A DNA stretch of 32,265 nucleotides from an uncultured Mucilaginibacter sp. (GCF_903913935.1 NZ_CAIWNH010000152.1:1-32265), one strand, 5' to 3'; numbered from the stretch's first letter, positions 4,288 through 32,068 are shown. Made by a program: numbers and translations. The notes: generated from the sequence alone by a model not told the origin.

Positions 4288-4333
4288 GGTATAATTACCT
4301 TTACTAATATAATCCCGGGTCCTTTCTTTCGCC

Positions 4334-6895: not shown

Positions 6896-6902
6896 TTGCT
6901 TA

Positions 6903-6952
6903 TAAATTTAATATTTCACTACCTGTTTCCAAATGTTAAAAAAGTAGTAATT
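6903..6952 (-). promoter_or_regulatory. Shared 22-bp box plus -7 element, response regulator promoter (site A)
   Basis: Read on the minus strand, the 22-bp box (6952 down to 6931) has the core TACTACTTTTTTAACATTT. Exactly 20 nt later comes TAAATTTA (6910-6903), a 7/8 match to TAnnTTTG. The box is identical over 22/22 positions to the one at 13009-13030 and 21/22 to that at 12005-12026, and the 20-nt spacing to the -7 element is kept in all three. The ATTT end of the box sits where the -33 element should be. Confidence 0.75.
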
Positions 6953-7035
6953 ATGAAGAAAGAGCCGAGAGTAAAGAACCAGGATTCAAGATAGAAACAA
7001 AGTCGAAATAAGCATAGCCCATCGTTATTACAGCA

Positions 7036-10000: not shown

Positions 10001-10107
10001 GAAAGGCCATCATTGACCCCGATATTTTCGAACCGTGGAATAATATCCTGCGCAGCTACCCTGCCCGAAAACAGGACAATAAAAAGTACAATAAGAGAGC
10101 TTCTCAT
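7036..10107 (-). CDS. Sensor histidine kinase with periplasmic reg_prop propeller and Y_Y_Y domain
   Basis: This is a 1023-aa membrane sensor. Residues 1-19 are a signal peptide ending VAAQ. A chain of two-component-propeller repeats follows, each of the form (N/R)xWxGTxxGLxxYD, for example FMWFGTADGLNRYD and NLWIGTDGGGVCKLD, and these build a large periplasmic beta-propeller. Next come a Y_Y_Y immunoglobulin-like domain (about 690-765), one membrane helix (about 771-791) and a HisKA_3 dimerisation helix with phospho-acceptor His821 in ISRDMHDEIGSGL. The HATPase domain has an N box near 929 and the G motifs SDDGHG and GNGLKNM. It resembles the hybrid HTCS sensors of Bacteroidota but lacks the fused receiver and AraC domains; the separate NarL-type regulator downstream fills that role. 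HTCS relatives sense glycans; the ligand here is unknown. Confidence 0.95.
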   Translation of the reverse strand: MRSSLIVLFIVLFSGRVAAQDIIPRFENIGVNDGLSQSSVYSIFQDKKGFMWFGTADGLNRYDGENIRIYKINDKKIANSNFIHGNISEDSHGNIWFCNETGLFYYDPLNDKLSRKLIFKKYGWTAGIFIDSNDIFYIFNPAAGIYAYHISTSQLILTACRLKEPYTNFVSEQLTTDYKNTIWIKSPEDKGVFAFNTQTGKLKFIRPAIDFYSTFYTGDGRLYNLQSPGKIIVTDSAFNVLDSVAFGLPLNKTLDVQAIRSDAYHRIWISTYDNGLLCYDEHTRTYINYLHDNSRVKTLPINILSALCIDRSGNLWIGTDGGGVCKLDLKPPKFNLFPLNEGDYPFLKDYFIKCFFEDKSGRIWLGTHSSGLNIYDPETRLIKSYDYQHYKSKGLPGSIISSILKDRDGQIWISGSLGITIFDEATGIFKPVKVINGPVLNEHSNFVYKLIQLENGELVGATAYGLMTIKKNGAGYTCFFDKSKTANVFLTTDVVEMGDHTLWASCPLHGLIHYKKKGDEFEVLEKRFLLIDIRSIHPDEKDRNALWIGTGIGLIEFNTLTNKQSFYDERNGMANSYVYGVLEDEQHNFWMSTNMGLIFFDRQEGTFQNYTAKDGLQSNEFNTQAFYKGASGNMYFGGIRGFNWFNPKITRTPAYTAPGVAITSISIDDNPYVKDEQFSKSKTISLNYDQNNISFRFAALDFTRPQANKVKFILEGWDKNWITSGDKNMRYTHLMPSHYILRVKAANSDGVWSKEEKLNIIVNAPFWQKTWFYVCASIVFLALIIYITYYVSRQKIKKRLGQLEKQAAIDAERNRISRDMHDEIGSGLTHIALLSELIQTQQKTERTIKNDLGSISIVARKLVETMSEIIWALNPQNDSLENLLSYIREQMQQLFEPFKLTLKIDFPDDVPQIRLSNEQRRNLYLVTKEALNNVMKHADANHVKLSLRLDIDRVNFEVSDDGHGMHAKTTRLSGNGLKNMRKRMEDIGGTIEWINQERGLKVVYALSLENNQESKARKNATAI

Positions 10108-13092: not shown

Positions 13093-13959
13093 TTAATAGG
13101 GATAAACATCATCCGCAATTAAAGTAACTGCTGTTTGGGCAAGTAGCCTGCCGGTGACTTTAGAACCAGTATTTACTGATATCAGCGTTTTACTAAGGAT
13201 ATTTCCTTTGAAATTTACTGCAGTACCAAGCGTTGCCTTTCCTGAAACTACCCAGAAAATATTTTTGGCCTGTGCCCCGCCTTCTAAGGTGATGATGGCA
13301 CCATTACTTACAGTAAGGTTTTTTGCGATCTGAAAAACCCAAACATCATCCGCAAGGCCGCTTAGCTTAACGCCCACTCCTGATATTAATACGCCGGTAC
13401 CCCATTTGTACAAACCGGGATGCAAAGTCCTCCCGCTTAAATCGCCGGCAAATTTTTCAGTAAGCGGGGCCGGAAAAGTACGGCCGTTAGCTTTAGTAAA
13501 AGCGGTCTTCATGTCACTGATTGCTGTGGTCATTTTTGCCGGTGTAGGTGGCGCATAATTAGCTGCAAAAACCTCGCCGGTTACAATGGGCGTAGTTGAA
13601 AATTGATTGGATGCATCCATTTTTAATCCAAATCCGGTAATTGCGGTTCCGGCTATTGGGCTGACACCAATATTACCTGTAATTGCTGTAACACCCGTTG
13701 TAGAAATTCCGGTTTCTGATAAAATAGTAAAGTTAACTGCTGTGCCCAGGTAAACCGGCTTAGCATCAACATCAGTGCTTGATGTAAGGTTTGTAGAAAT
13801 AGATGCCTGTGGTGTTGTACTTGTTGAATTATCTTTTTGGCATCCTGCCATTAATAATGCAGCAAGGACTGCCATTCCACAAAAAATGGTTACTTTTTTG
13901 GAACTTTTTTGTCCCTGAGGTATCCGGGTATTTTTAACCAACCCGATTTTTTTTATCAT
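13093..13959 (-). CDS. DUF3494 ice-binding lipoprotein
   Basis: The 288-aa protein is of the ice-binding/antifreeze family DUF3494 (IBP-1 type), a right-handed beta-solenoid that binds ice planes or mediates ice adhesion. The family pattern runs over about 65-288: LGTAVNFTILSETGIS, then TGNIGVSPIAGTAITGF, then DLSGRTLHPGLYKWGTGV, then DDVWVFQIAKNLTV and GGAQAKNIFWVVSGKATLG. A long basic N-terminus leads into a lipobox with Cys40 (LLMAGCQKD), so it is a lipoprotein; C-Q-K-D resembles the surface-export signal of Bacteroidota. It is the last of three genes with the OmpA-like and large DUF3494 genes, but a 578-nt gap separates it from ompA, so it may have its own promoter. Confidence 0.9.
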   Translation of the reverse strand: MIKKIGLVKNTRIPQGQKSSKKVTIFCGMAVLAALLMAGCQKDNSTSTTPQASISTNLTSSTDVDAKPVYLGTAVNFTILSETGISTTGVTAITGNIGVSPIAGTAITGFGLKMDASNQFSTTPIVTGEVFAANYAPPTPAKMTTAISDMKTAFTKANGRTFPAPLTEKFAGDLSGRTLHPGLYKWGTGVLISGVGVKLSGLADDVWVFQIAKNLTVSNGAIITLEGGAQAKNIFWVVSGKATLGTAVNFKGNILSKTLISVNTGSKVTGRLLAQTAVTLIADDVYPY

Positions 13960-16597: not shown

Positions 16598-18694
16598 TTA
16601 TGGCACATTAACCGTCGTATTCACCATGGTAACCGATGCAACCAGGGAAATAGCCCTGCCATTAAGCACCGTTTGAACGGCATTTCCTGCCGTAGAGATG
16701 GTAACCCCCGCGGTCGCAATAATGGTTCCCACCATAACGCCACCGCCGGCGCCGTTAATGGTTGCTGCTGTTCCTACATACCAAAAAACATTTTTAGATT
16801 GTGCACCGCCAATTAATTTAACGCTGCGTGCACCTGCCGGCCCGGCTATCCCAACCGTTAGTCCGGCTGCTGTCTGGAATATCCAAACTGCATTCGGGTC
16901 GCCTTTGGCATCCAGCGTTAGATCACCGTTTGATATTTTAAAAGTACCGCTTGCAGCTTTATAAACACCAGGAGCTAAGGTTAAACCCCCTAATTCTCCG
17001 GCGCCCGGATCCGAACCACCTGGTTTCGACGCTGGTGAAATACTGATATATGCGGTATTAGCGTCAAGCAAAGCTTTTGAAGCAATGGCAAATGAGGTAG
17101 CCGTTCCGGGAGCTGGTGGTGCTGTAAAGATGCCGCCGGAAACCAAACCTTTATTTAAAGGTGTTTCGGTGTAAACATCGCCAGTTAACCCGTCATGAAA
17201 CCCGGTAATCAGCGTAGAAGCGGCCGTCGTGCCTATTCCACCATTGTTAATTACTGTATTTAACCCCTGGTTGGTAACGCCGGCGTTTCCTCCGAAAGAT
17301 CCGAAATTCGAGATGCTTCCTAAGGTGGGCGGCGCTAAAACTATTAAGGTAAAGTTTGCAGTGATATTTTTATTCGCGTTCATTAATACGGCCAATGGAT
17401 TGGCTGTGCCGGCGGCGTCTCCACTCCACGACTTAAATTTGTAGCCGGTATTTGGCGTTGCCGTAAGATGAACAACACTTCCATAATTGTACGTTAACTG
17501 GTCGGGCGTTTTTAAAACCGTTCCATTAACTGCGGTAACGTTCAATGTAAATGTATTGATGGCGAAATTGGCCACTAAGTTTGTATTTGCATTTAAAGGA
17601 AAGGTATAAGCCGCACTGGTGGATACGATCAAGCCGTTTTTTGTCCAATTTATAAAGGTATACCCGGTATTAGCAATCGCTGTCGCTGTAACGGATGTTC
17701 CCCCATTGTATGAGCCTGATCCTGATGTTGTTCCGCCTACTGCCGGACTTGATGAGAGCACTAAAGCAAATTGAGATGACTGAACAGCGCTGAAGTTGGC
17801 AACCAGGGTAGTATTTGCTGTCAAAATAAACTGGTAGTTTGAACTGGTCGAAACAATGGTTCCGTTATTTGTCCAGTTAACAAAAGCATAGCCTGCATTT
17901 GGCGCAGCGCCAACAGTTACAAACGCCCCTGCTTTAAACGCCCCGGATCCGGATGTTTTACCACCTGCGGCAGGATTTGAGGATAAGTTGACCGCAAAAT
18001 TTCCGGCAACAACCGGCGTGTAGTTTGCAACTAATGTTATGTTTCCATTGACGATAAACTGATAACTTGAGCTTTTAGATACTATAACGCCGTTGTTGGT
18101 CCAACTGGTAAATGTAAATCCAGTATTGGGGGTTGCAACTACAGTAGCTACCGAGCTTTGGGCAAATGTACCCGCCCCCGCGGTTATTCCGCCCGCTACA
18201 GGGTTTGATGATACACCTATTTGCGGAATAGTAGTGAAAGTCCATACGTAATTGCCGGCCATTGCTGAACCTAAGGTATCAGTAGCACCGGTGGTAATTG
18301 TACCTGTATATTTAATAAAGGGTAATAATGCCACCGTCGGCGTGAACGTAAATACCGCGTTATTGGCGGTGGGCGCTACCGTTCCGGCAACAACTGTTGA
18401 ACCCTGCATAATGGTAAAAGTTGTACCATTGATTGACGAGGGACGCATGGCCGTATTAAATGTAACTGAAATAACTTTGTTGAGTACAACGTCAACCGCT
18501 GCATTCATCGGATCGGTAACAGTCACGATCGGGCAAACGCCCTGGATAGCTCCTTTATAATTATCCTTTTTACAACCGGCCGTAAATATGGCAAGCAGTA
18601 ATACCATTGACCACATGGTGTTGAATATCCTGGAATAGTCTCTGCTTTTACGCTTTGATATACTATCCTTAGTCGGGGTAGATTTTTTTTTCAT
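16598..18694 (-). CDS. Multidomain DUF3494 ice-binding/adhesin lipoprotein
   Basis: The protein has 698 aa from ATG 18694. The longer frame starts with TTG at 18766, inside the -7 promoter element, so it is rejected. Order: a basic n-region and lipobox with Cys41 (TAGCKKD); a Big_5/SbsA-type Ig-like domain (about 53-156); four InlB-type bacterial repeats at about 158-226, 234-302, 309-377 and 381-449, each with a GY-x-F-x-x-W core and ending N-x-x-L-V-A-N-F or similar; and a C-terminal DUF3494 domain (about 455-698) with GGAQSKNVFWYVGTA and APGVYKAASGTF. This layout, with a stalk of repeats and an ice-binding tip, fits an ice-adhesion protein on the cell surface. Promoter at 18764-18771. Confidence 0.9.
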   Translation of the reverse strand: MKKKSTPTKDSISKRKSRDYSRIFNTMWSMVLLLAIFTAGCKKDNYKGAIQGVCPIVTVTDPMNAAVDVVLNKVISVTFNTAMRPSSINGTTFTIMQGSTVVAGTVAPTANNAVFTFTPTVALLPFIKYTGTITTGATDTLGSAMAGNYVWTFTTIPQIGVSSNPVAGGITAGAGTFAQSSVATVVATPNTGFTFTSWTNNGVIVSKSSSYQFIVNGNITLVANYTPVVAGNFAVNLSSNPAAGGKTSGSGAFKAGAFVTVGAAPNAGYAFVNWTNNGTIVSTSSNYQFILTANTTLVANFSAVQSSQFALVLSSSPAVGGTTSGSGSYNGGTSVTATAIANTGYTFINWTKNGLIVSTSAAYTFPLNANTNLVANFAINTFTLNVTAVNGTVLKTPDQLTYNYGSVVHLTATPNTGYKFKSWSGDAAGTANPLAVLMNANKNITANFTLIVLAPPTLGSISNFGSFGGNAGVTNQGLNTVINNGGIGTTAASTLITGFHDGLTGDVYTETPLNKGLVSGGIFTAPPAPGTATSFAIASKALLDANTAYISISPASKPGGSDPGAGELGGLTLAPGVYKAASGTFKISNGDLTLDAKGDPNAVWIFQTAAGLTVGIAGPAGARSVKLIGGAQSKNVFWYVGTAATINGAGGGVMVGTIIATAGVTISTAGNAVQTVLNGRAISLVASVTMVNTTVNVP

Positions 18695-18763
18695 GGTAGT
18701 TTTTTTTATTAATAGATGTATTTTTGACGTCCTGATTCTGTTTTGATGGGAATTATGACTATA

Positions 18764-18771
18764 CAAACCTA
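18764..18771 (-). promoter_or_regulatory. -7 promoter element of the DUF3494/OmpA gene group
   Basis: TAGGTTTG on the minus strand matches TAnnTTTG exactly. It predicts a start near 18757 and a leader of about 60 nt to ATG 18694, which rules out the in-frame TTG at 18766 as a start. No clear -33 TTTG is seen. Confidence 0.55.
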
Positions 18772-22626: not shown

Positions 22627-23004
22627 TTATTTGGGCTGTACAGCGTAAATTTTCAGCCCCAAAATTCCGGTCATTATCAATAGCATAAAAAACACTTCGG
22701 GCCACGAGATCCGTTGCTGAAAGAATACTATTTCAGAAATTTTAAGAAATATTAGAGTTGTTGCTGTCCAGACTGCAAATGCCATTGCGGTTGGGATCTG
22801 TTTTATAGCGGTTGAGAAAAAATAGATGTTGGCCAACCCAAATAAAACATAACCCACAAAAGGCAGTAAAAACTGTAAACCTCCCTGCCATTTATAAAAA
22901 TTGGTAAAGGTTAAGGTCTTCAGGTCGCTAAATTTCATGAACTTTAAACAAAAGGTCCAGGCGGTTTCGCAGGTTGCGGCTAAAACTAAATATATCCAGG
23001 CCAA
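22627..23004 (-). CDS. SMR-family transporter (EmrE/Gdx-like)
   Basis: This is a 125-aa four-helix membrane protein of the small multidrug resistance family. The membrane-embedded Glu13 in MAWIYLVLAATCETAW aligns with EmrE Glu14. Helices lie at about 1-20, 44-65, 72-94 and 103-121. Its length is slightly above the typical 105-110. The likely start is TTG at 23004: there is no ATG between the upstream in-frame stop and this point, and the resulting N-terminus aligns with the family. SMR proteins exchange protons for quaternary ammonium cations or guanidinium as antiparallel or parallel dimers; substrate not readable here. A single gene, with no paired SMR partner. Confidence 0.9.
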   Translation of the reverse strand: MAWIYLVLAATCETAWTFCLKFMKFSDLKTLTFTNFYKWQGGLQFLLPFVGYVLFGLANIYFFSTAIKQIPTAMAFAVWTATTLIFLKISEIVFFQQRISWPEVFFMLLIMTGILGLKIYAVQPK

Positions 23005-23090: not shown

Positions 23091-24074
23091 TCATTGCTGT
23101 TTGTAGGTATAATTTACAACATCCCCATCAAGCTCATTAATGGCAGCATGCGACGGGGTATTGTCCGTTTCCAATTCATCGGGGTGCATATAAAATACTC
23201 TTGCGGATTTTTTGATCCCTAAAAATTTGCTCAATGCCGTTACCAGGTTTGGGCGTAATTCATAATACCATTTAAACCATTTGTATTTCAACAGGCTTTT
23301 TTCGTCGAACCTTTTTACAGAGAAAACGTGCTGCAGGAAATAGTCTTTAGGATAATCATAATACAAGCCCCAGTTCTCGCGGCGGTTGCCAGGTTTATGG
23401 CCCGGAAAATATGCTGTCCCAAAGAGATAGTCCCATATAGAAAACTTAGTAGCGAAATTGGCATGAAAAACCTCGCGGTAATTGGCATGGTGCCATAAAT
23501 GCAATTCGGGCGAATTCAGAAAGTACTTTAATTTCCCAAACTTTACATTCACATTGGCATGGATAAACATGCCGAACATGGCATCAAGCAGGGCTTTGAT
23601 AGGTATTACTTCGGGATGTGCCCCTAAAATTATTATGGGTGCAAATTCAATGGTTTGATTAATGATAATTTCGACAACGTGAGACCTTGATCCCGCCAGG
23701 AAATCAACTTCTTTGCCGGAGTGGTGAGCCTCATGCGTACGCCAAAGCAACTTATTAGCATGCTGTAAACGATGGAACAGGTAGATATACAGATCATGGG
23801 TAACCAGGAAAAACAAAACCTGTTCGGTTATCGACCAGCTTCTGAAAAAGGCGAAACCGTGCCAGTGGATAAAATTTTGCAGCGATGGTATGATGTATGC
23901 GAAGATCAGGATCTTCAAAAAATAACTCTGAATGATGGTATACCATACCAAATCAACCCAAAAACCCTCCCTAAAAAAAGGCAGGCCTTTACGGTACGGC
24001 GAGATCCGTTCCCAGGAGATGATGAAGATCACCCAGCAAATGAGGATTGTTGTTGTGGTTTGAATTAATGTCAT
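23091..24074 (-). CDS. Sterol desaturase / fatty-acid hydroxylase superfamily membrane protein
   Basis: The 327-aa integral membrane protein has the histidine clusters of the diiron hydroxylase superfamily: H-D-L-Y-I-Y-L-F-H-R-L-Q-H, then H-E-A-H-H, then H-L-W-H-H-A-N-Y. An FGTAYFPG motif follows the third box. Several membrane helices lie in the N-terminal half. Bacterial members hydroxylate or desaturate lipids, carotenoids or alkylglycerols; the substrate is not deducible. The ATG at 24074 is directly preceded by four AAGTC words (24076-24105), so its leader is composed almost wholly of that repeat and no Shine-Dalgarno is visible. Confidence 0.92.
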   Translation of the reverse strand: MTLIQTTTTILICWVIFIISWERISPYRKGLPFFREGFWVDLVWYTIIQSYFLKILIFAYIIPSLQNFIHWHGFAFFRSWSITEQVLFFLVTHDLYIYLFHRLQHANKLLWRTHEAHHSGKEVDFLAGSRSHVVEIIINQTIEFAPIIILGAHPEVIPIKALLDAMFGMFIHANVNVKFGKLKYFLNSPELHLWHHANYREVFHANFATKFSIWDYLFGTAYFPGHKPGNRRENWGLYYDYPKDYFLQHVFSVKRFDEKSLLKYKWFKWYYELRPNLVTALSKFLGIKKSARVFYMHPDELETDNTPSHAAINELDGDVVNYTYKQQ

Positions 24075-24105: not shown

Positions 24106-24161
24106 AAAACTATTTGTTCAATTTATTATTTAAATTTTTCTGGATTATTTGTCATATAAAT

Positions 24162-24488
24162 TTAGAGATACGTGACCGCTTCGCTTTGCTTATTAAGTTC
24201 GTTGTATTTGCCGACATCAATATAATTACAAGCAAGCGAGGCATCTAGCCAGGCTTGCGTTTCACCATTCTCCATATCTGCATCTGTAAGTTTACTCACA
24301 AAATGATTTGGGTATTTTCGCTTTTTATAAGCTTCTGCAATTTAAGCAAAAACCGATCTTGAAGATCTCCTTATTTGGTCAATAAGACTATATGTTTCTT
24401 CTTTTGGAAAACTTTTCGTTATTGAAAATATTTCCATCGATAACGCAAATGCTTTTTTATAAGCAATCAAATCTCTGAATGAACTCAT
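24162..24488 (-). pseudogene. Four-helix-bundle (S23/23S rRNA-intervening-sequence type) protein, broken by an in-frame stop
   Basis: Read on the minus strand from ATG 24488, the frame gives MSSFRDLIAYKKAFALSM..., then IRRSSRSVFA, an in-frame TAA at codon 49 (24344-24342), and then in the same frame IAEAYKKRKYPNHFVSKLTD and AETQ-type family sequence (ETQAWLDASLACNYI) to a final TAA at 24164-24162. This is the four-helix-bundle family (TIGR02436, 23S rRNA IVS/S23 proteins, 115-120 aa), whose consensus is S-R-S-V-x-A-N-I-A-E-A; the stop replaces the conserved Asn. At 109 codons it is otherwise full length with no frameshift, so the damage is recent, or the stop is a sequence error. The gene is bracketed by AAGTC-word repeats. 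Confidence 0.8.
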
Positions 24489-24496
24489 CGTTTAGG

Positions 24497-24590
24497 CCTA
24501 AAGTTTAAATCCGAAAGTCGTTATTTTTTATGCTTTTTCATGAAATATTTAAGACTTCGGACTTAAGACTTTAGGCTTCGGACTTAAAAC
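24497..24590. repeat. AAGTC-word inverted repeat downstream of the HAD-NeuB gene
   Basis: Left arm 24497-24520 (CCTAAAG, TTTAAAT, CCGAAAG, TCG words) pairs with right arm 24551-24575 (AAGACTTCGGACTTAAGACT and on), around a 30-nt loop of AT-rich sequence; another partial right arm follows (GCTTCGGACTTAAAAC, to 24590). It overlaps the first base of the HAD-NeuB stop codon and ends 9 nt from the start of the broken four-helix-bundle gene. It could end transcription of the sugar operon. Confidence 0.75.
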
Positions 24591-26017
24591 TATGCTTTCG
24601 CCTTTTCCTTATACTCTTCACTTATGTTAACCCTTAAACGTTTCATAGGGCCAAGTTCAGATTCGTACACTCTTTTTATGCCATCACCGGCTGCAATTTC
24701 CACATCGCGGATATCACGCACCAGGCGCTGAAAGCCTTGCGGCTCAACTGATGCGGCATGATCAGATCCCCACATGGCCCGGTCAAGCGTGAAATGGCGT
24801 TCTACAAACGTTGCGCCCATAGTAACTGCGGCAACGGTTGTTGCTAAACCCGTTTCGTGGCCCGAGTATCCAACCGGAATACCCGAATATTTGGTAGCCA
24901 GTGTCTGGATCATCCGAAGGTTCAGTTCTTCAGGTTTGCATGGATAAGCCGAAGTAGAATGTGCGATGAACAAAGGATAATGCCTGTCAAACGACCATAC
25001 CAGGTTCATTGCGTCTTCGATCTCTTTAGTTGTCGACATCCCTGTGGATAGCATCAACGGCTTCCCTGTAAGCAAAATCCGTTTGATCAGCTGTGTATCT
25101 GTTAAAGACGCTGAAGCCAGTTTATACAAAGGGGTATCAAATTGCTCCATAAAATCAACCGCTTCCACATCCCAGGTAGAAACGAACCAATCAATCCCTA
25201 CCTTTTTGCAATACTGGTCGATAGTGGCGTATTCTACAATACCAAATTCGGTTTTGCGCTTATAGTCAATGTACGATATCCGGCCCCATGGCGTGTCGCG
25301 CATAATTTCCCACTGGTCTTTAGGCACACAAAGCTCAGGTGTTCTTTTCTGGAATTTAACGGCAGTCGCTTTTGCCGCTACGGCCTCATCGATCAGTTGT
25401 TTGGCAATTTCAAGTGAGCCGTTATGATTGATACCGATCTCCGCAATAATATAGCAGGGTTCTCCCGGTCCGATTTTGATGCCGCTATTTAAAGTGATCA
25501 CTTCATTTTTTTGCCTGCTCACCTTTTCGCCTTTACGTGCAGCAATGATCATTTCCGCAACTTCCCTGAAACAACCGCTGCCGCCGTTATTTTCACAAAC
25601 TAAAGAAGCCATATCTTTAACAAAGAATATAGCATTTGCCGGGCAAAATGAAACGCCGGCAAGCTTCATTATTTCCAGGTCGTTTACATCATCACCAATA
25701 AAGCCAACTTCCTCGGGTTTTAAGCCAAGCCTGCTGATGATCTCCTGAAACACGGTGGGTTTGTCTTTAACGCCCAGGTGGAGTTCGGTGATCTTTAATT
25801 TTTCTGCGCGTTTAATTACCGATGGAGATAACTCCCCGGTAATAATGCCCGTAGTTACACCCGCAAGGTTTCGCAGGCGTTCAACACCCATACCGTCGCG
25901 GATATCGAACTTTTTCAGTTCTTCCCCGGCTTCGCCATAATAAACGCCGCCGTCCGTTAATACGCCGTCACAATCAGTGAGGAGTAATTTGATTCGTGAA
26001 AGTTTTGCTGCTAACAT
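24590..26017 (-). CDS. Fusion of KdsC-type HAD phosphatase and NeuB-family PEP-condensing synthase
   Basis: The protein has 475 aa from ATG 26017; an in-frame TTG 9 nt upstream is less likely. Residues 1-163 are a KdsC-like HAD phosphatase: LLLTDCDGVLTDGG with Asp15 and Asp17, GIITGE, and GFIGDDVNDLEIM. Residues 184-475 are a NeuB/SpsE TIM barrel: AEIGINHNG (192-200), KFQ (221-223), YKLASAS, LSTGMS, PVGYSGHE and ERHFTLD. NeuB enzymes join PEP to a sugar aldehyde to make sialic-type ulosonic acids; the HAD half would remove a phosphate from the product. The C-terminal SAF/antifreeze-like domain is absent: the chain ends just after KRLRVNISEE. That is unusual, because SAF shapes the active site of classical NeuB. 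Last gene of the operon, 32 nt after the SDR. Confidence 0.9.
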   Translation of the reverse strand: MLAAKLSRIKLLLTDCDGVLTDGGVYYGEAGEELKKFDIRDGMGVERLRNLAGVTTGIITGELSPSVIKRAEKLKITELHLGVKDKPTVFQEIISRLGLKPEEVGFIGDDVNDLEIMKLAGVSFCPANAIFFVKDMASLVCENNGGSGCFREVAEMIIAARKGEKVSRQKNEVITLNSGIKIGPGEPCYIIAEIGINHNGSLEIAKQLIDEAVAAKATAVKFQKRTPELCVPKDQWEIMRDTPWGRISYIDYKRKTEFGIVEYATIDQYCKKVGIDWFVSTWDVEAVDFMEQFDTPLYKLASASLTDTQLIKRILLTGKPLMLSTGMSTTKEIEDAMNLVWSFDRHYPLFIAHSTSAYPCKPEELNLRMIQTLATKYSGIPVGYSGHETGLATTVAAVTMGATFVERHFTLDRAMWGSDHAASVEPQGFQRLVRDIRDVEIAAGDGIKRVYESELGPMKRLRVNISEEYKEKAKA

Positions 26018-26049
26018 ATTGTTCAAGTTTAATTGGGTTCGTTATTTTA

Positions 26050-26856
26050 TTAAATCGCGGTCCATCCGCCGTCAACCACCAGGTTTGCACCTGTCATATA
26101 AGCCGAGGCATCGCTTGCCAGGAAAACCAAAGCGCCCTGGTAGTCTGTTGGTTGTGCCATCCGGCCAAGTAATGTTTTTGCTGAATAGTTGTGTATAAAA
26201 AATTCGTTTTGTGCATTCTCAACGCCTCCGGGAGAAAGCGTATTTACGCGTACGCCCTTGCTTCCCCAGTACGCCGCCAAAAAGCGGGTAAAGTTTATTA
26301 CTGCGCCTTTGGTAACCGGGTAAACAGCCGATTTATAAAAGGTTTGTTCGCCGCATTCATTCCGGTAAATAGATTGATCGGGCCCAACGATACCATAGGT
26401 GGATGCTATATTGATGATACTACCGCTTCCCTGTCCGGCCATCACGGTGCCAAAAACCTGCGAGGCCAGGAAAACCCCGGTTACATTTACATCGAGAGAT
26501 TTTTTAAATGCATCGAGCGGGTAATTTTCAAAAGCCGATAACTCTTTTGCCATTCCCGGATTTTCAAACATATCGTTGATGGCGGCATTGTTCACCAAAA
26601 TATCAATACTTCCGTAGCGCGTTAATATTTTATCACGAGCTGTTTTTAAAGATAACTCGCTGGTAACATCAACTTTTAATCCTCCATGCTGTTCGCCTAA
26701 ACTTGCGGCAAATTTTTCCGAAGCAGCTTCATCCATATCCGCTACCACCACATTGGCACCGGCTTCAGCAAGGGCTTCGCAGTGTTTTTTACCCAGCAAG
26801 CCAAGAGCGCCGGTAACAATTGCAGTTTTATCTTTTAATGAAAATATGTTAGTCAT
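26050..26856 (-). CDS. SDR-family oxidoreductase
   Basis: This is a 268-aa classical short-chain dehydrogenase/reductase. The NAD(P) motif reads TGALGLLG (15-22), a TGxxGxxG variant of the usual TGxxxGxG. It is followed by VVADMDE at the end of beta-2 (Asp suggests NAD), LVNNAA, the catalytic serine in INIAST, and Y-x-x-x-K as YPVTK. The C-terminal LSPGG and MTGANLVVDGGWTA are canonical. It probably oxidises a sugar hydroxyl to a ketone, or reduces a keto sugar, in the pathway of the operon, next to the aminotransferase that would use a carbonyl. Its ATG lies inside the first copy of the GTCATT repeat, so leader and start are built of that repeat. Confidence 0.92.
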   Translation of the reverse strand: MTNIFSLKDKTAIVTGALGLLGKKHCEALAEAGANVVVADMDEAASEKFAASLGEQHGGLKVDVTSELSLKTARDKILTRYGSIDILVNNAAINDMFENPGMAKELSAFENYPLDAFKKSLDVNVTGVFLASQVFGTVMAGQGSGSIINIASTYGIVGPDQSIYRNECGEQTFYKSAVYPVTKGAVINFTRFLAAYWGSKGVRVNTLSPGGVENAQNEFFIHNYSAKTLLGRMAQPTDYQGALVFLASDASAYMTGANLVVDGGWTAI

Positions 26857-26982
26857 TTGCTTCGCGTCATTGGGTCATTGGGTCATTTGCTTCGCGTCAT
26901 TGGGTCATTTGCTTCGCGTCATTGGGTCATTTGGTCATTGTTTTTCCGCTTCAATGACCTAATGACTTAATGACCAAATGAC
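26852..26982. repeat. GTCATT-word repeat with palindromic core between aminotransferase and SDR genes
   Basis: Three 22-bp units at 26852-26873, 26882-26903 and 26904-26925 each start GTCATTTGCTTCGC and end GTCATTGG; an 8-bp GTCATTGG word separates the first two. The left arm ends GTCATTTGGTCATTG (26926-26940); the right arm (26952-26982, CAATGACCTAATGACTTAAT and on) is its inverse, around an 11-nt loop. The repeat fills the whole 130-nt gap inside the operon and contains the SDR start codon. The units are not CRISPR repeats: there are no unique spacers. Confidence 0.85.
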
Positions 26983-26986
26983 TTTT

Positions 26987-28324
26987 TTATACCGCCTTCG
27001 GCTTTATATTATAGTTACTTACTTTACGGAAAACTGCTTCCAGCACTTCGCCTTTTAAATATTGTTTGATATTACCGCTTTGGATAGCTTCTTTCATTAT
27101 CGGCATTACATCACGGTATGCCGAAAGTGTATAGGCAATATCCTCATCGCTATGGCTGTAACACATGTTGTGGAAACCGGCCCACAGTACACCACGTTTG
27201 ATCATTTCCTGCTGCATCAGGGTTTTTACTTCAAGGCCATTACCGGCTTCGGGTGTAAAAGTCACCATGGACCGGCAGTTGTAACCGATGCAGCGGGTGT
27301 AAATATCCATCCCGGTTTCAATCGCGATCTGGTTATAGCCGTCTTTCATTAATCCACCTTTTTCGTCTAAATATTGCGGTACATTTTTATCGCGCAACTC
27401 ATTAATGGTAGCAATGCAAGCTGCCAGCGATAAAGCTTCGCCGCCAAATGTGGTGTAACTAAAGACTTCGTGATTAAACAGTTCCATTACATCAGCACGG
27501 CCGGTTAGCAGGGCAATAGGCATCCCGTTGGCGCATGCTTTTGAATATACAGCCAGATCGGGTTTTACATCAAAGTATTCCTGGGCGCCGCCGATCGCGA
27601 TGCGGAAACCTGTCCACATTTCATCAAAGATCAGCAGGGTACCATTTTCCTTACATACTTCGGCAAGTTCTTTAAGAAAGCCAGGTTTTGGCGCTTCAAA
27701 AATAAATGGCTCCAGGATGAGGGCTGCAACGGTTTCATCCAGCGCGGCTTTTATAGCCTCTATATCATTATACTCAAAAGTATAGGTCATGTTCTGTATG
27801 GCCTCGGGGATACCGGCATTACGGCTGGTGATACCGATATACCAATCGTGCCAGCCATGGTAACCGCAGCAAAAAACTTTCTCGCGTTTGGTAAATGCAC
27901 GGGCAACCCGTATGGCTGCAGAGCAAACATCCGCACCGGTTTTGGAGATCTTTACGGCTTCGGCATTGGGGATCACTTCCTGTATCAGTTCCGACAATTC
28001 AACCTCGAGCGGGTGCATCAGCGAAAAAGTAATGCCATCTTTCAGTTGTTTTTCGATAGCTGCATCCACAGCAGGGTAGGCATAACCCAAGGAAATAGGA
28101 CCGATGGCCGAGTTAAAGTCGATATACTCGTTCCCGTCAACATCCCAAACATGCGAACCTTTGCCTTTTTGCAGGTACTTTGGCGCTACGCCATTGGTAA
28201 ACTGTCCCGGGCCTTTTGCCAGGGTTTGGGTAACCGGTTTTTGAACTTTTACCGCGCGTTGGTACAGTTCGTTTGATTTACTTATATCGGGGTATCCGGG
28301 GTTAAATTTTACAGAATTTGGCAT
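26987..28324 (-). CDS. Class III aminotransferase (glutamate-1-semialdehyde aminomutase-like)
   Basis: The 445-aa PLP enzyme of fold type I has the pyridoxal lysine Lys262 in VYSKACANGMPIALLTG and the Asp of IFDEMWTGFR about 29 residues before it. HGWHDW and the GADVCSAAIRVAR region bind phosphate and cofactor. Homologs close to glutamate-1-semialdehyde aminomutase recur in surface-sugar clusters. Here it would move an amino group to a sugar carbonyl made by the SDR, or act as a mutase; it is unlikely to serve heme synthesis, given the context. It starts 15 nt after the transketolase C-terminal gene; its stop is followed within 5 nt by the GTCATT repeat. Confidence 0.9.
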   Translation of the reverse strand: MPNSVKFNPGYPDISKSNELYQRAVKVQKPVTQTLAKGPGQFTNGVAPKYLQKGKGSHVWDVDGNEYIDFNSAIGPISLGYAYPAVDAAIEKQLKDGITFSLMHPLEVELSELIQEVIPNAEAVKISKTGADVCSAAIRVARAFTKREKVFCCGYHGWHDWYIGITSRNAGIPEAIQNMTYTFEYNDIEAIKAALDETVAALILEPFIFEAPKPGFLKELAEVCKENGTLLIFDEMWTGFRIAIGGAQEYFDVKPDLAVYSKACANGMPIALLTGRADVMELFNHEVFSYTTFGGEALSLAACIATINELRDKNVPQYLDEKGGLMKDGYNQIAIETGMDIYTRCIGYNCRSMVTFTPEAGNGLEVKTLMQQEMIKRGVLWAGFHNMCYSHSDEDIAYTLSAYRDVMPIMKEAIQSGNIKQYLKGEVLEAVFRKVSNYNIKPKAV

Positions 28325-28339
28325 GGTATTCTTGTTTAT

Positions 28340-29278
28340 TTATTCAGAAAATTGCGGGATTGATATTTCGGGTTGATAGGCATTGGTATTGTAGCCCAAT
28401 ATTTTTTCGGCTATTTGTTTGCCGGTAAAGCCCTCGTGTTCCAATACGTTTGGCAATAAGGAGGGCTTGAACCATTTGTCCTTCAATGCCATCGGGATAA
28501 CCTTGGCAGTCTGGCAGTGCTTTAACAACACTTCGGCAACAATACTATAAAGGCCACCTGTTACGAAATGATCTTCGAGCGTGATGGTTAAGGTACTTTC
28601 CCGGGTAGCCTCTAATATAGCCTGCTCATCTACAGGCTTCAGGCTGCGCAGGTTGATCAAACCAACCGACAAACCTTCGTTTTTCAATATCTCAACGGCG
28701 ATCATCGCCTGTTCAAACAATAGGCCGTAGGTTAATATGGTAACGTCTTCGCCTTTTGAGATCACCTCGGCCTTGCCTAATTTAAATGGCCTATGCTGGT
28801 AATCAGTTTTGCGGGTATTGATGCGGACGTAAGACGGATGCGGATGCTTCCATATTTCGGGCAGCATCATTACCAGGTCCTGCTCATCGGCGGGGGCAAA
28901 AACCGTCATGTTCGGAATGCCGCGCATCAGTGAGATATCCTCCACAGCCTGGTGGGTAGGTCCATTACCATCAGATAAAAACCCTGGTATAAAACTGCTT
29001 AGTTTAACTGGTAGGTTAGGGATACCTGCGTCTGTCCTCACAAATTCAAAGGCCCGCATGGTTAAAAATGATGCGAGGGCATGTACCACGGGTATGCGCC
29101 CACGCAGCGCCAACCCGGCGGCAGCGCCAATCATGGTTTGTTCGGTGATGCCGGTATCAATAAAACGGTTGCCCAGTTTACCGGGGATATTGCGTACCAG
29201 GGCACGGTTTTCAGCCGTCATCACGATAAAACGATCGTCGGCTAATGCAGTTTGGGTAAGTAATTCTTCGTAGGTCAT
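28340..29278 (-). CDS. Transketolase, C-terminal subunit (split)
   Basis: The 312-aa second half of a two-gene transketolase comprises the pyrimidine-binding and C-terminal domains. Seen are DTGITEQTMIGAAAGLALRG, with the glutamate that activates the TPP pyrimidine; GPTHQAVEDISLMRGIPNMTVFAPAD; and the C-terminal LEDHFVTGGLYSIVAEVL of transketolase C domains. It pairs with the N-terminal subunit, whose stop is separated from this ATG by one base, so the two are co-translated. Split transketolases in bacteria often belong to pathway-specific clusters rather than central metabolism. Confidence 0.93.
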   Translation of the reverse strand: MTYEELLTQTALADDRFIVMTAENRALVRNIPGKLGNRFIDTGITEQTMIGAAAGLALRGRIPVVHALASFLTMRAFEFVRTDAGIPNLPVKLSSFIPGFLSDGNGPTHQAVEDISLMRGIPNMTVFAPADEQDLVMMLPEIWKHPHPSYVRINTRKTDYQHRPFKLGKAEVISKGEDVTILTYGLLFEQAMIAVEILKNEGLSVGLINLRSLKPVDEQAILEATRESTLTITLEDHFVTGGLYSIVAEVLLKHCQTAKVIPMALKDKWFKPSLLPNVLEHEGFTGKQIAEKILGYNTNAYQPEISIPQFSE

Positions 29279-29279
29279 G

Positions 29280-30143
29280 TTATCTCACCACTAAAGTTTC
29301 AGATGTTAAATTCGTTAAATGTTCGCCGTGCAATTCTTTCAGCAGGCTCGCCACCTCTTCGGCATTAAAATTACAGAACCACCTGTCGGCCCTGCGTTCG
29401 ATGCTGGGCAGCCCCTTACCGCGCACAGTGTCGGCAATCACCACATTTAGTTTGCCTGTTTCAAACGGAAATGCCGAAAACGCTTCGTGCAACGCTTCAA
29501 AGTTATGCCCGTCAATTCGTTTTACTGCTGCGCCGAATGCCTCGAATTTATCGGTTAAAGGTTCCAATGGGATCAACTCTTCGGTAGGCATATTGGCCTG
29601 GAAATGGTTCCGGTCGATCACAAAGATCAGGTTATCTAATTTGTGCGCATTAGCCACCAATGCGGCTTCCCAGCAAGTACCTTCGTTCAGCTCGCCATCG
29701 CCCATAATACAGATCACCTTGTTTTTGCCGCCCCTTATTTTAATATCCATGGCGACGCCTATAGCTACTGAGGGCAAATGGCCCAAAGAGCCTGAATGAA
29801 ATTCGATACCCGGAATATGCGTATTGGGGTGCCAGTAAATATGATCGTTAAGGGCTAAATGATTTTTCAACCGATCTCTCTCCAGCAAACCAAGTTCAGC
29901 GAAGGTGCCGTATAGCGCTGGTACATCATGCCCTTTTGAAAGGAAGAGGTAATCCCTGTCCGGGTCGTCAAGGTTGTTTGGGTTGATATTTAAAAATTCT
30001 GAATACAGGTATACAATCAAATCGGCGGCAGACAAGGATGCTCCAACGAAGCATCCGCCATCTGTTGACATTTTGATTATATGCTCCCTTACTTTTAAAG
30101 CAGTGGCTTCGAGCTGGTCAATTGGTATAGCTAAACTTTGCAT
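29280..30143 (-). CDS. Transketolase, N-terminal TPP-binding subunit (split)
   Basis: The 287-aa first half of a split transketolase has the TPP diphosphate-binding motif GDGELNEGTCWEAA followed after about 20 residues by IDRNHFQ. GHDVPALYGTFAELG and HSGSLGHLPSVAIGVAMD are transketolase signatures. The enzyme moves a two-carbon ketol unit between sugars. In this operon it may shorten or lengthen an aldose before PEP condensation, as the split transketolase of aminoshikimate clusters supplies iminoerythrose phosphate; this is inference. The gap to the SpsF-like gene is 51 nt. Confidence 0.93.
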   Translation of the reverse strand: MQSLAIPIDQLEATALKVREHIIKMSTDGGCFVGASLSAADLIVYLYSEFLNINPNNLDDPDRDYLFLSKGHDVPALYGTFAELGLLERDRLKNHLALNDHIYWHPNTHIPGIEFHSGSLGHLPSVAIGVAMDIKIRGGKNKVICIMGDGELNEGTCWEAALVANAHKLDNLIFVIDRNHFQANMPTEELIPLEPLTDKFEAFGAAVKRIDGHNFEALHEAFSAFPFETGKLNVVIADTVRGKGLPSIERRADRWFCNFNAEEVASLLKELHGEHLTNLTSETLVVR

Positions 30144-30194
30144 TTAATATGAATAAAACTTTAAAGTTAAATCCTGATCATTTAACTTTTGTTA

Positions 30195-31019
30195 TCAAAA
30201 AGTCAATTTTGTTTGGTCTGATGAAATAGTTTTCAATTCATCTATATGGTTACGGTACCAGTTTACGCCTGCGTAGCGGGCATTTATCTCATAAATCTCC
30301 GGCTTTTGTTCAAGCAGGCTAATGATATCATTGCAGGAAAAATCATGTTTGGCCGGGTATAACTCTTCGTAAACACGCTTAATAAACAAGTAATCAGCTT
30401 CATAATCGATCGCAAAGCGATGCGACATGGAATAATCTTTTCCTGTATCCCAGGTTACGTTTCCAATACTGAAGCTTTCAGGGTTTTCCCAGATATAGGG
30501 CGTGGTGTGCTCCAGCTCCAGGTTCTTTGTTGCTTCTTCCCAGGTTCTTTCAAGGCAGGCCATGGTCATGATCTCCACATCGTTCCCATCCGGAAAAGTG
30601 GCCGGGTGCAGGTTGCTTACGTAATCATATTCACCGGGGTGCTCAAAATAGAAATCAAGCACCTGGTCGATAAAGCGCGGGTCTATCAGCGGGCAATCCG
30701 AAGGGATCTTTAATACTATATCTGCATTGTGTTTTTTGCCGGCCTGGTAATGGCGGTCCAGCAGGTTATTGAGGTTGCCGCGAAAGCAGGGCACCTGTAT
30801 CCGGTCAGCTTCCTGTTCAATAATATCGTCGGCACTTTCTTCAGACGTAGCAATAACCACCAGCGCCTGGTGGCGGATCATTTTAAGCCGTTCGATCATC
30901 CTTGACAAAAGGCTTTCGCCCAATATGGGCATCATCACCTTCCCGGGTAAGCGGGTCGACGACATCCTGGCTTGTACAACTATTACAGTATTATCTGCCA
31001 TCATATTAAACGCGTACAT
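30195..31019 (-). CDS. SpsF-like cytidylyltransferase
   Basis: The 274-aa GT-A-fold nucleotidyltransferase of the SpsF/CMP-sugar synthetase group has VVQARMSSTRLPGKVMMPI, with the S-x-R-L-P-G-K cytidylyltransferase signature (about 14-28), and IPSDCPLIDPRFID for the metal/PPi site. NeuA and KdsB use the same motif to activate ulosonic acids with CTP, so it could activate the product of the NeuB fusion. SpsF proteins remain poorly characterised. The start used (31019) lies 2 nt after the previous stop, giving coupled translation; ATG at 31004 or 31001 is also possible, and removing 5-6 residues would bring the VVQAR motif nearer the N-terminus. Confidence 0.85.
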   Translation of the reverse strand: MYAFNMMADNTVIVVQARMSSTRLPGKVMMPILGESLLSRMIERLKMIRHQALVVIATSEESADDIIEQEADRIQVPCFRGNLNNLLDRHYQAGKKHNADIVLKIPSDCPLIDPRFIDQVLDFYFEHPGEYDYVSNLHPATFPDGNDVEIMTMACLERTWEEATKNLELEHTTPYIWENPESFSIGNVTWDTGKDYSMSHRFAIDYEADYLFIKRVYEELYPAKHDFSCNDIISLLEQKPEIYEINARYAGVNWYRNHIDELKTISSDQTKLTF

Positions 31020-31021
31020 GA

Positions 31022-32068
31022 TTAGGCATACCGCACCTCAAGATAAGGTTCGCTTTCTGCCTTAAATGTAAATCCTTTCAGAAAATCTTCTTTTTTACCT
31101 GTAAAATCAATATACTGCCTGCAAATTTGCGCAATGTTTTTTGCAGATGTACCGCCGTTCTGGACGGGGGCCAGGCGGTAAAGCTCCTCAATGTCAAAAT
31201 AGGAATGTACTTTTTTACCCAGCGCTATCCCGGTATAAACCACCGTTGAATATTGCGTGATCAGCTCGCAGCAATTCGCGATCATGTGGTTGGTATTTCC
31301 GTTGCTGAATATCAAAGTGCCTTCGGGCGCATATTTTTTTATCTCTGCTTCTGCCCTTGGTACGTTTTCGTTAGGGTGCAGCTTAAAAAGCAGTTGCCTT
31401 CTATCAGCGATATTTGCAGCATGGCGTATAAAGGCAGCCCTGTTTTCAAAACGATAGGTCTCGCGCATATCCGTGGTAGCAACCATCACATAGTCATGCA
31501 ATGGAAAATCATTATCCAGGTATTGGCGCTGGTTGTCGTAATTAGGGATCCCCGTTACTATCAGCTTTGAAGGGTCAGTACCTTTCCGGGCAAAGTAATT
31601 TTTGTACCCTATTGAGGCTGTACAATAAATATCGCATACATTGGTTGAGCCATTCAACGAAGTGTCGCCCGAGCAATATGGCGGCAGGTTTAAGGCTTTA
31701 ACCAAACCGGTTAACAGGGTGGTTTTATCGATCATTCCTTCCTGCACCCAGATGGTTTTGGTATGCCTGAATTTTTTGGCTACGATCATATCGGTACAGT
31801 TAACCACCAAATCGTATGGATGCCTGTTGCCACCCCGGTCAATCTGGGCGCCAAAGTGGCTAAGGTAGTTTTCTGATTTTTTCCGGAAGTGATCAGCAAG
31901 CACCGTATGGTTGGCAACAGGCGTGTATTTTAGTATTCCCTTTAAAAAATTGTTGTCTGCGAAGAGCTGGCTAAACCAGCAGTCGAAGTCAGACAAATGC
32001 TCCGAGATCTGGTGCATTTGCGAAGTTTGATTAATAGATCCGGTAATAAATAGTATCTTCTTCCTCAT
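31022..32068 (-). CDS. GT-B-like glycosyltransferase / CDP-glycerol transferase-type protein
   Basis: The 348-aa cytosolic protein has GT-B fold character. The N-terminal domain begins MRKKILFITGSINQTSQMHQ; the C-terminal domain has LLFKLHPNENVP, an FSNGNTNHMIANC segment and TQYSTVVYTGIALGKKV, a pattern seen in CDP-glycerol/polysialyl-type transferases and in non-hydrolysing UDP-GlcNAc 2-epimerases. It lacks clear epimerase catalytic sequence. As the first gene of the operon, it is the best candidate for the transferase that uses the CMP-activated sugar made by the others, but family assignment is uncertain. Next gene follows after 2 nt. Confidence 0.6.
   Translation of the reverse strand: MRKKILFITGSINQTSQMHQISEHLSDFDCWFSQLFADNNFLKGILKYTPVANHTVLADHFRKKSENYLSHFGAQIDRGGNRHPYDLVVNCTDMIVAKKFRHTKTIWVQEGMIDKTTLLTGLVKALNLPPYCSGDTSLNGSTNVCDIYCTASIGYKNYFARKGTDPSKLIVTGIPNYDNQRQYLDNDFPLHDYVMVATTDMRETYRFENRAAFIRHAANIADRRQLLFKLHPNENVPRAEAEIKKYAPEGTLIFSNGNTNHMIANCCELITQYSTVVYTGIALGKKVHSYFDIEELYRLAPVQNGGTSAKNIAQICRQYIDFTGKKEDFLKGFTFKAESEPYLEVRYA

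Follow-up and report, generated by a model that had tools for sequence, protein, structure and literature searches.

A conserved Bacteroidota operon with a dedicated transketolase in a putative pathway to an activated ulosonic acid

To our knowledge, the characterised pathways to nonulosonic acids (NulOs) take a hexose skeleton unchanged and lengthen it by phosphoenolpyruvate (PEP) only. Among described systems, the sfmABCDE operon of Shewanella oneidensis unites a short NeuB-like protein (290 amino acids), a thiamine pyrophosphate (TPP)-dependent enzyme and a weakly PtmA-like short-chain dehydrogenase/reductase (SDR), and deletion of each of these genes changed flagellin mass and motility, in line with a NulO-type flagellin modification (available part of PMC3765264). 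Here we describe a similarly composed minus-strand operon in an uncultured Mucilaginibacter sp., on a contig of 32,265 nucleotides that was analysed as a whole (the window; NZ_CAIWNH010000152.1, from assembly GCF_903913935.1, 5.26 Mb, 603 contigs, 96.6% complete). Unlike sfm, the TPP enzyme of which is a single chain named ilvB and not a transketolase, this operon encodes both halves of a split transketolase; and whereas the available part of the same source places a methyltransferase and an ATP-grasp protein in the sfm operon and names no class III aminotransferase, phosphatase or cytidylyltransferase there, the operon in the window encodes all of the last three. On the basis of co-occurrence and of the displacement of one transketolase type by another in Bacteroidota genomes, we suggest that a dedicated transketolase is very probably integral to a pathway for an ulosonic acid activated with cytidine monophosphate (CMP).

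A first-pass annotation of the window had described seven co-directional genes at 24590–32068, and all of these open reading frames (ORFs; here A to G) were found at these coordinates on the minus strand, with intergenic gaps of 2, 51, 1, 15, 130 and 23 nucleotides from G to A, the 130-nucleotide gap containing overlapping short repeats. Domain scans agree with the families that it had named (that is, a KdsC-like haloacid dehalogenase with NeuB, SDR, class III aminotransferase, Transket_pyr with Transketolase_C, Transketolase_N and CTP_transf_3), and a predicted model of gene G agrees with its GT-B-like transferase. What it had missed is that the operon extends past gene A to a hydroxylase (H) and then to an SMR transporter (I). 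Gene G starts 197 nucleotides from the end of the contig, and its upstream region falls outside this contig. The features are as follows.

31022–32068, minus strand: gene G, GT-B-fold transferase with polysialyltransferase-like catalytic marks, probably a CMP-ulosonic acid transferase (conserved residues, model)
30195–31019, minus strand: gene F, SpsF-like cytidylyltransferase (CTP_transf_3; PF02348, E=2.6e-29)
29280–30143, minus strand: gene E, N-terminal (TPP-binding) half of a transketolase, in which Phe stands in for both His26 and His261 of TktA (PF00456, E=1.9e-26)
28340–29278, minus strand: gene D, C-terminal half of the transketolase, with the catalytic Glu and His473 kept, Asn at Asp469, and R358 and the S385 loop absent (PF02779/PF02780)
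26987–28324, minus strand: gene C, class III aminotransferase, like glutamate-1-semialdehyde (GSA) aminomutase (PF00202, E=4.4e-50)
26852–26939, no strand assigned: short, overlapping direct repeats in the gap between C and B (from the sequence)
26050–26856, minus strand: gene B, SDR dehydrogenase, PtmA-like among others (PF13561, E=3.4e-48)
24590–26026, minus strand: gene A, ulosonate-9-phosphate-type phosphatase (residues about 1–165) fused to a NeuB-type PEP-condensing synthase (about 190–462), without SAF (domain scans)
24120–24488, minus strand: degenerate 23S-rRNA-intervening-sequence (four-helix) element between A and H (limits approximate, by eye)
23091–24074, minus strand: gene H, FA_hydroxylase-superfamily membrane hydroxylase, OlsE-like (PF04116, E=5e-27)
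22627–23004, minus strand: gene I, SMR-family small transporter (PF00893, E=3e-15)

That a dedicated transketolase serves a CMP-ulosonic acid pathway had been proposed in the first-pass annotation, and both the co-occurrence of the families across the Bacteroidota, which it had put forward as a check, and a pattern of displacement support this. Presence lists for 395 genomes of the phylum were compiled by hand from separate profile searches, with cut-offs of our own choosing: 1e-100 for gene E and the aminotransferase, E<1e-150 for a single-chain transketolase type (T290, see below) and 1e-120 for the synthase, where a cut-off of 1e-60 would have given 143 genomes, 6 more than were counted. 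The profile of gene E matched 40 genomes at E<1e-100 (next match, 2.4e-60); the aminotransferase was found in 53, including all 40 with the split transketolase, and the cassette-type synthase in 137, including all 53 with the aminotransferase, such that the split transketolase was accompanied by aminotransferase and synthase in 40 of 40 genomes. The co-occurrence of split transketolase and aminotransferase gives a Fisher value of 7e-44, which ignores kinship and is indicative only.

Thirteen genomes have the aminotransferase without the split transketolase, and 12 cassettes run G-F-C-B-A1-A2-H without E-D (five of them labelled by eye, and one with an extra gene before H). In G797, the place of E-D is occupied by a single-chain transketolase of 652 amino acids (T290), with no phosphatase labelled alongside. 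A search of 80 genomes from a set of 119 (the other 39 being aminotransferase-free controls) found this type in 12 of the 13 aminotransferase-bearing genomes that lack the split form, in 0 of the 40 that have it and in 0 of 27 aminotransferase-free controls (Fisher 5e-11, likewise ignoring kinship and indicative only); within family f17 alone, the counts are 0 of 13 split-form genomes versus 5 of 6 others. The first 10 T290 relatives examined are 58–61% identical to T290 and lie outside the cassette, and 9 of these 10 genomes hold an E. coli-like transketolase besides. No match of comparable strength turned up in G648 or in G797, the latter of which has another split-type one, and in G771 the T290-type gene is in two pieces. 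Six split-form genomes give weaker T290 matches (2e-77 to 1e-63), which overlap the split transketolase of the cassette itself in three (G547, G422 and G559) and lie elsewhere, at 29–30% identity, in the others (G621, G520 and G528). Because the single-chain type displaces the split type, we believe that a dedicated transketolase belongs to the pathway, given that two distinct transketolases filling one vacancy are stronger functional evidence than co-location. The notion that the split pair is the sole transketolase of its host is ruled out by a separate, E. coli-like transketolase of 673 amino acids in the window genome (together with a DXS-like frame).

The cassette is conserved well beyond the window. 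Fused-synthase orthologues (at least 73% identity) were found in 14 of 35 genomes of the genus, including that of the window, and in 0 of 166 genomes of other genera in the family sample; all 13 relatives with the orthologue carry the seven genes in the same order and on the same strand (A being two ORFs in 2 of them), with H directly behind A in all 13 and the SMR gene following in 11 of these. In a profile search for the aminotransferase among one-per-species genomes, a set that overlaps in part with the 395-genome sample, the best 80 of at least 532 confirmed relatives all lie inside the cassette (70 with the full A–G, 4 without A and 6 cut by contig ends), and the hosts listed among these 80 include Mucilaginibacter, Pseudarcicella, Spirosoma, Arcicella, Fibrisoma, Taibaiella, Flectobacillus and Hymenobacter. 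Where named Mucilaginibacter cassettes lack A (L116, L126, L128 and L131), gene A is found elsewhere in the genome (E<1e-293). In Spirosoma telluris (L138), several cassette genes appear as split tblastn pieces, such as frameshifts or poor assembly might produce.

The order G-F-E-D-C-B-A-H recurs across the Bacteroidota: of 36 loci fetched from 38 genomes outside the genus, 29 keep the cassette order (G being unlabelled in two, L235 and L238) and 7 are partly or wholly scattered. In scattered genomes of families f29 and f16 (G496, G539, G547, G798, G551, G422 and G503, five of them from f29), E-D, and mostly C too, lie away from A, and a cassette-type synthase is present elsewhere in every genome. 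Several gene labels in distant loci, and in the genome G101 discussed below, were assigned by eye on the strength of the first residues. Outside the phylum, a plasmid from Methylomagnum ishizawai, a gammaproteobacterium, carries G-F-E-D-C-B followed by synthase and then phosphatase. A chance neighbourhood is ruled out by the conserved order in genus relatives, named loci and loci outside the genus. A phage- or virus-borne set was rejected as well: 94 stretches of viral_contigs match gene D patterns, none of them a relative by tblastn, and the 16 matches to E in the phage collection are all below 40% identity. Three further features recur beside distant cassettes. Metallophosphoesterase-like genes of two kinds adjoin them (L224, L238 and L240–L244 versus L209, L211, L220, L226, L231 and L237), the first kind looking LpxH-like by eye only; a membrane protein of about 350 amino acids, possibly an alternative flippase, lies immediately upstream of G in L218, L220, L232 and L233; and 23S-rRNA-IVP-like four-helix genes occur in or beside cassettes of unrelated genomes (L033, L216, L219, L221 and L230, of which L033 was scanned). 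The copy in L033 (9347–9709) is intact (PF05635, E=7.5e-30), and that of the window looks degenerate.

The synthase domain of gene A matches the full PF03102 profile (E=2.2e-74, residues 211–451), with no match beyond the NeuB domain, and is the one NeuB that a Pfam search finds in the window genome. The nearest solved relative of its phosphatase is 3e81, which, with 4hgo, 4hgq and 4hgr, we take to be BT1713; the variants 4hgq and 4hgr differ from 3e81 at E56 and K67, presumably the residues that confer specificity for the 9-phosphate of Kdn (3-deoxy-nonulosonic acid). Residues E65, R73 and K76 occur in 110 of 110 loci with a match, E65 and K76 being the equivalents of E56 and K67, whereas none of 6 KdsC-type proteins, of which five come from cassette genomes and one is a control, has either the E or the K. 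These marks point to a nine-carbon ulosonate phosphate as the predicted substrate rather than the 8-phosphate of Kdo (3-deoxy-octulosonic acid). The KdsC/Kdo reading of the phosphatase was rejected on the residues at both marker positions, which are unlike those of the KdsC-type proteins examined; model scores are mixed, in that the KdsC subfamily TIGR01670 is reached (146 versus 107 bits), and neither the equivalog NF007019 (141 of 208 bits) nor the NCBIfam Kdn-9-phosphatase equivalog (153.5 bits, cut-off 180) is. Of the 137 genomes with the synthase type, 84 (nearly all of family f18) have no cassette aminotransferase, and the f18 loci inspected (L280–L282) hold a synthase–phosphatase pair and, over the 20 kb viewed, no further labelled cassette gene; these are possibly plain Kdn makers. 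Overall, we consider a nine-carbon (C9) Kdn-type backbone probable at the synthase step.

The split transketolase departs from E. coli TktA in a consistent manner. In alignments with TktA and Dxs, all 14 cassette copies keep the equivalents of D155, N185, E411, H66, H100 and H473, and with them the TPP/Mg-binding residues and the catalytic glutamate; in all 14, H26 is replaced by Phe, D469 by Asn and H461 by Phe or Leu, and R358 and the S385 loop are absent. A further Phe, inside an invariant WFCNF in the 14 rows, takes the place of H261 (placed through Dxs H299 and the 6yak alignment), and R520 is kept in 13 of 14. In TktA, R358, S385 and H461 are phosphate ligands, and H26 and H261 are substrate histidines. 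The phosphate of the substrate is bound by S385, docking placed aldehydes on H26/H261 in an engineered mutant, and changes at S385, D469 and R520 shift TktA from phosphorylated to non-phosphorylated acceptors (available part of PMC5073344). The nearest solved relatives are the two chains of the split transketolase of Carboxydothermus (6yak for E and 6yaj for D), an enzyme that is two-chain like the cassette form and that, in the available part of its description (PMC7661550), shows none of the aromatic-acceptor substitutions of TktA (R358, S385, D469, R520 and L382); unlike it, the cassette form lacks R358, S385, D469 and H26/H261.

Gene G of the window has no Pfam match at E≤0.001. Its distant copies weakly match both PF04464 (Glyphos_transf) and PF02350 (Epimerase_2), the latter down to E=6e-6, below cut-off; PF04464, of the TagB/TagF type, scores about the same, with one of five copies over the cut-off. 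An AlphaFold model built with 39 sequences (mean predicted local distance difference test score, 89.7) has a GT-B fold, with GT-B matches at Z of 14–18, among which the epimerases are followed by PglA (15.7), TagF (14.4) and a polysialyltransferase (14.1, 13% identity). Alignment to a WecB/NeuC profile by hhalign reaches low probabilities only, 6 in local and 20 in global mode; this low-confidence alignment does not show the motifs GTRPE, EAGLRT and HRRE, judged by the residue roles known for WecB. Across 77 copies of G, Q14, E110, G111, K229, H231, P232, N233, E234 and S274 are conserved at 95% or more; Q17 and T275 fall below this, Q17 being invariant in 39 closer copies. These marks match, in the same order, Q41/Q44, E153-G, K-L-H-P-K-E and S339 of GT38 polysialyltransferases (available parts of PMC5517516 and PMC2169525), the latter source also defining the HP-motif CMP-sialyltransferases by HP and D/E-D/E-G. 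Fold and the E-G, K-HP-(K/N)E and S marks are common to GT38 and G, which differ in the Q-E-G acidic motif of G and share 13% identity. TagB-type proteins have themselves been cited as candidate NulO transferases in Tannerella (available part of PMC7439481). We suggest that gene G is probably a CMP-ulosonic acid transferase, as its conserved residues and model indicate.

The other enzymes are more distant from named families. Gene C lies nearest to PRK06209 in NCBIfam (370 of the 486 bits needed), falls short of the hemL equivalog (238.8 bits, cut-off 527.3) and has GSA aminomutases as its nearest solved relatives; gene B scores 127 bits against the PtmA model (cut-off 350), and gene H 96.7 bits against that of the ornithine-lipid hydroxylase OlsE (cut-off 475), its nearest named family, with no useful solved relative in the structure search. 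The operon has one cytidylyltransferase, one transferase and no second sugar-activating enzyme, and none of its nine genes is a 4,6-dehydratase or a DegT aminotransferase. The earlier statement that a dehydratase is missing stands for the cluster and not for the genome, which has one strong PF02719 match (388.8 bits in a 656-amino-acid frame, PglF/CapD-like by size) and nine weak ones. One objection that had been foreseen, a NeuC-type enzyme supplying a standard aldose, does not arise, as the 96.6%-complete genome holds no NeuC-type (Epimerase_2) match over the cut-off and one weak match of 19.3 bits; the standard route to neuraminic or legionaminic acid (Leg) was rejected on these grounds. 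The neighbours typical of Leg and pseudaminic acid loci are missing beside the synthase, and pseudaminic acid was judged through these neighbours only. Sialic or legionaminic acid by known routes is therefore unlikely, and Kdn is a possible product.

Taking these observations together, we lean towards an operon that suffices by itself to make, activate with CMP and transfer a single 3-deoxy-ulosonic acid, in which a Kdn-type acid is made first and the transketolase acts later. The NeuB-type synthase would condense an aldose phosphate with PEP to a Kdn-type nine-carbon acid phosphate, from which the Kdn-9-phosphate-type phosphatase would remove the phosphate. The SDR may then oxidise a side-chain hydroxyl, the transketolase may add a two-carbon ketol unit to this oxidised side chain, which carries no phosphate, or remove one from it, and the aminotransferase may turn the resulting carbonyl into an amine. 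The cytidylyltransferase would yield the CMP sugar and the HP-motif GT-B transferase would pass it to a membrane or envelope acceptor, while the OlsE-like hydroxylase and small transporter would act on the lipid side. Family and residues argue for the predicted synthase, phosphatase, cytidylyltransferase and transferase steps; for the transketolase, class III aminotransferase and SDR, the support is their constancy as partners. We tentatively place these last three after the synthase on four grounds, none of them decisive: the Kdn-9-phosphate marks, the absence of phosphate ligands from the split transketolase, the synthase type without the cassette aminotransferase in 84 genomes and the arrangement in G101. 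An envelope or lipid destination is suggested by genes H and I together with the one Methylomagnum locus. In its most specific form (a Kdn-type acid that is oxidised, lengthened to C11 or shortened to C7 by a transketolase for unphosphorylated sugars, aminated, CMP-activated and transferred by the HP-motif enzyme), the pathway would yield an ulosonic acid of a kind new to the literature, and is a doubtful proposition.

Several observations weigh against this reading. The proposed order of steps is drawn from residues and from which genes are present, and the chemistry, carbon count and acceptor are inferred. The losses are not all common to both transketolases: the T290 form also lacks D469 but has H26 and H261 and, in most copies, a residue like H461. 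Without H26/H261, it is difficult to see how the split form could cleave ketoses in the usual manner; moreover, no T290-type transketolase was found in G436, despite its aminotransferase and transketolase-free cassette. The genome G101 has G-F-E-D-C-B-H-I without A and without any cassette-type synthase; its NeuB is of another kind, with 34% identity, and adjoins an ORF of 383 amino acids, CMP-synthetase-like by eye, that ends in a Kdn-type phosphatase, the pair sitting within what appears, from labels by eye, to be a polysaccharide cluster. The best structural matches of G are UDP-GlcNAc 2-epimerases and NeuC (Z up to 18.4), and its acidic motif is Q-E-G and not D/E-D/E-G, although E-G is kept. 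H and I are not universal, being labelled in 22 and 6, respectively, of 40 distant loci; several glycosyltransferase genes flank the Methylomagnum copy on its other side, such that a polysaccharide setting is possible; and relatives of the SDR and aminotransferase also occur in Leg-type clusters, in which no transketolase is labelled.

The first-pass annotation had the transketolase feed the synthase. The part of this claim that stood is that a dedicated transketolase belongs to the pathway; action before PEP condensation did not fare as well, given that several facts favour a place after or beside the synthase. Its analogy with the aminoshikimate route, in which an aldehyde is fed to a PEP-condensing synthase, is a fair picture but not one of homology. 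A place before the synthase for the transketolase, aminotransferase and SDR is an uncertain prospect, yet nearly as likely as the favoured order. In the particular version considered here, which we hold to be rather unlikely, the transketolase would yield a ketose phosphate, aminotransferase and SDR would rework its C1–C2 end to give a 2-amino-aldose phosphate, and NeuB with PEP would give a C7–C9 amino-ulosonic acid. The gene order E-D-C-B-A equals this step order, and the phosphatase implies a phosphorylated synthase product. GSA-aminomutase-like enzymes, the nearest solved relatives of C, swap carbonyl and amine between neighbouring carbons. PtmA belongs to the initial part of the Leg pathway, that of the precursor (available part of PMC4481668). 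However, the split transketolase lacks the phosphate ligands of TktA, the synthase type does without the cassette aminotransferase in the 84 genomes noted above, and G101 pairs a cassette without A with another NeuB and a Kdn-type phosphatase.

Less probable still is an ordinary Kdn or other known NulO pathway, beside which the transketolase, aminotransferase and SDR would make a second sugar or head group of the same molecule; we judge this unlikely. NeuB and a Kdn-9-phosphate-type phosphatase suffice for Kdn, and the f18 loci viewed show just this pair labelled, but the operon, with its one cytidylyltransferase and one transferase, lacks a second sugar-activating enzyme, and all 53 genomes of the phylum sample that have the aminotransferase have the synthase type too, G101, outside the sample, being the sole exception seen. 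Equally improbable, in our view, is a product that is a free or lipid-bound small metabolite (for example, an aminolipid head group) and not a glycan sugar. The OlsE-like hydroxylase adjoins the cassette in all 13 genus relatives, on the Methylomagnum plasmid it is followed (L279:17589–20651) by the lysophospholipid transporter LplT and by two acyltransferases, one an OlsB-like N-acyltransferase and the other of the PlsC type, and no recurring polysaccharide gene set was seen among the neighbour families of the 40 distant loci, as judged by eye; against this, CMP activation and a transferase are present, the OlsE and OlsB matches are below their cut-offs, and the acyltransferases occur in one locus only, with glycosyltransferases on its other side. 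The Methylomagnum trio in itself hints at an acylated amino product. Finally, a NeuC/WecB-like 2-epimerase in the place of G, and with it a disguised sialic or legionaminic route, is highly improbable, given that its top structural matches and the weak Epimerase_2 matches of distant copies are offset by the poor WecB/NeuC alignment without the epimerase motifs, the HP, E-G and S marks of CMP-sialyl- and polysialyltransferases, and PF04464 matches that are about as good to a family that includes candidate NulO transferases.

Elsewhere in the window, ice-binding-like (PF11999) proteins (13093–13959 and 16598–18766, the larger with Big_5 and InlB-type repeats) flank an OmpA-type protein; a one-strand run at 3115–6114 with a PIG-L deacetylase, a GT1-type glycosyltransferase and an invertase/amyloglucosidase-like gene forms a separate small carbohydrate operon; and 6263–10107 holds a two-component-propeller histidine kinase with an adjacent apparent response regulator gene.

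No description of the cassette was found in the literature searched, which left out most subscription papers, and searches on the gene combination, Mucilaginibacter ulosonic acids, xylulose/capsule transketolases and BT1713 yielded nothing of use. Comparison with known systems nevertheless places its parts. The Kdn pathway of Bacteroides thetaiotaomicron shares the synthase–phosphatase logic, 3e81 being nearest to the cassette phosphatase, and differs in needing no transketolase, aminotransferase or SDR. Leg/Ptm-type clusters of the same family (L161, L164–L167 and L171) combine NeuB with a PtmA-like SDR 38–40% identical to B and a class III aminotransferase about 33% identical to C; unlike the cassette, these six loci have a NeuC-type epimerase and no labelled transketolase, and a full scan of one of them, L164, showed a dehydratase, a DegT aminotransferase and a Gfo/Idh oxidoreductase as well. 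In clusters of another type, NeuB is joined by an SpsF-like gene and a C-like aminotransferase. The proposed logic resembles the route to Kdo8N (8-amino-8-deoxy-Kdo), in which KdnA and KdnB oxidise and then aminate a terminal position of the ulosonic acid before CMP activation; its enzyme families differ from those of the cassette, and it has no two-carbon step.

A TPP enzyme beside NeuB therefore has a precedent in sfm, whereas a dedicated transketolase has none within the literature searched. The displacement of one transketolase type by the other offers a testable handle, as either type should rescue the other. Given how common the cassette is (53 of 395 phylum genomes by the aminotransferase, with named isolates of Mucilaginibacter, Spirosoma, Hymenobacter, Arcicella, Flectobacillus and Taibaiella among its hosts), its product may be an overlooked surface component of many soil and water bacteria. 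If the most specific form of our reading holds, environmental Bacteroidota would share a widespread sugar of the envelope, or a head group of lipids, that has so far escaped notice. Set against the pathways characterised so far, a required transketolase would mean that the skeleton is altered by two carbons somewhere, and would thus represent a new biosynthetic logic for this class of sugars.

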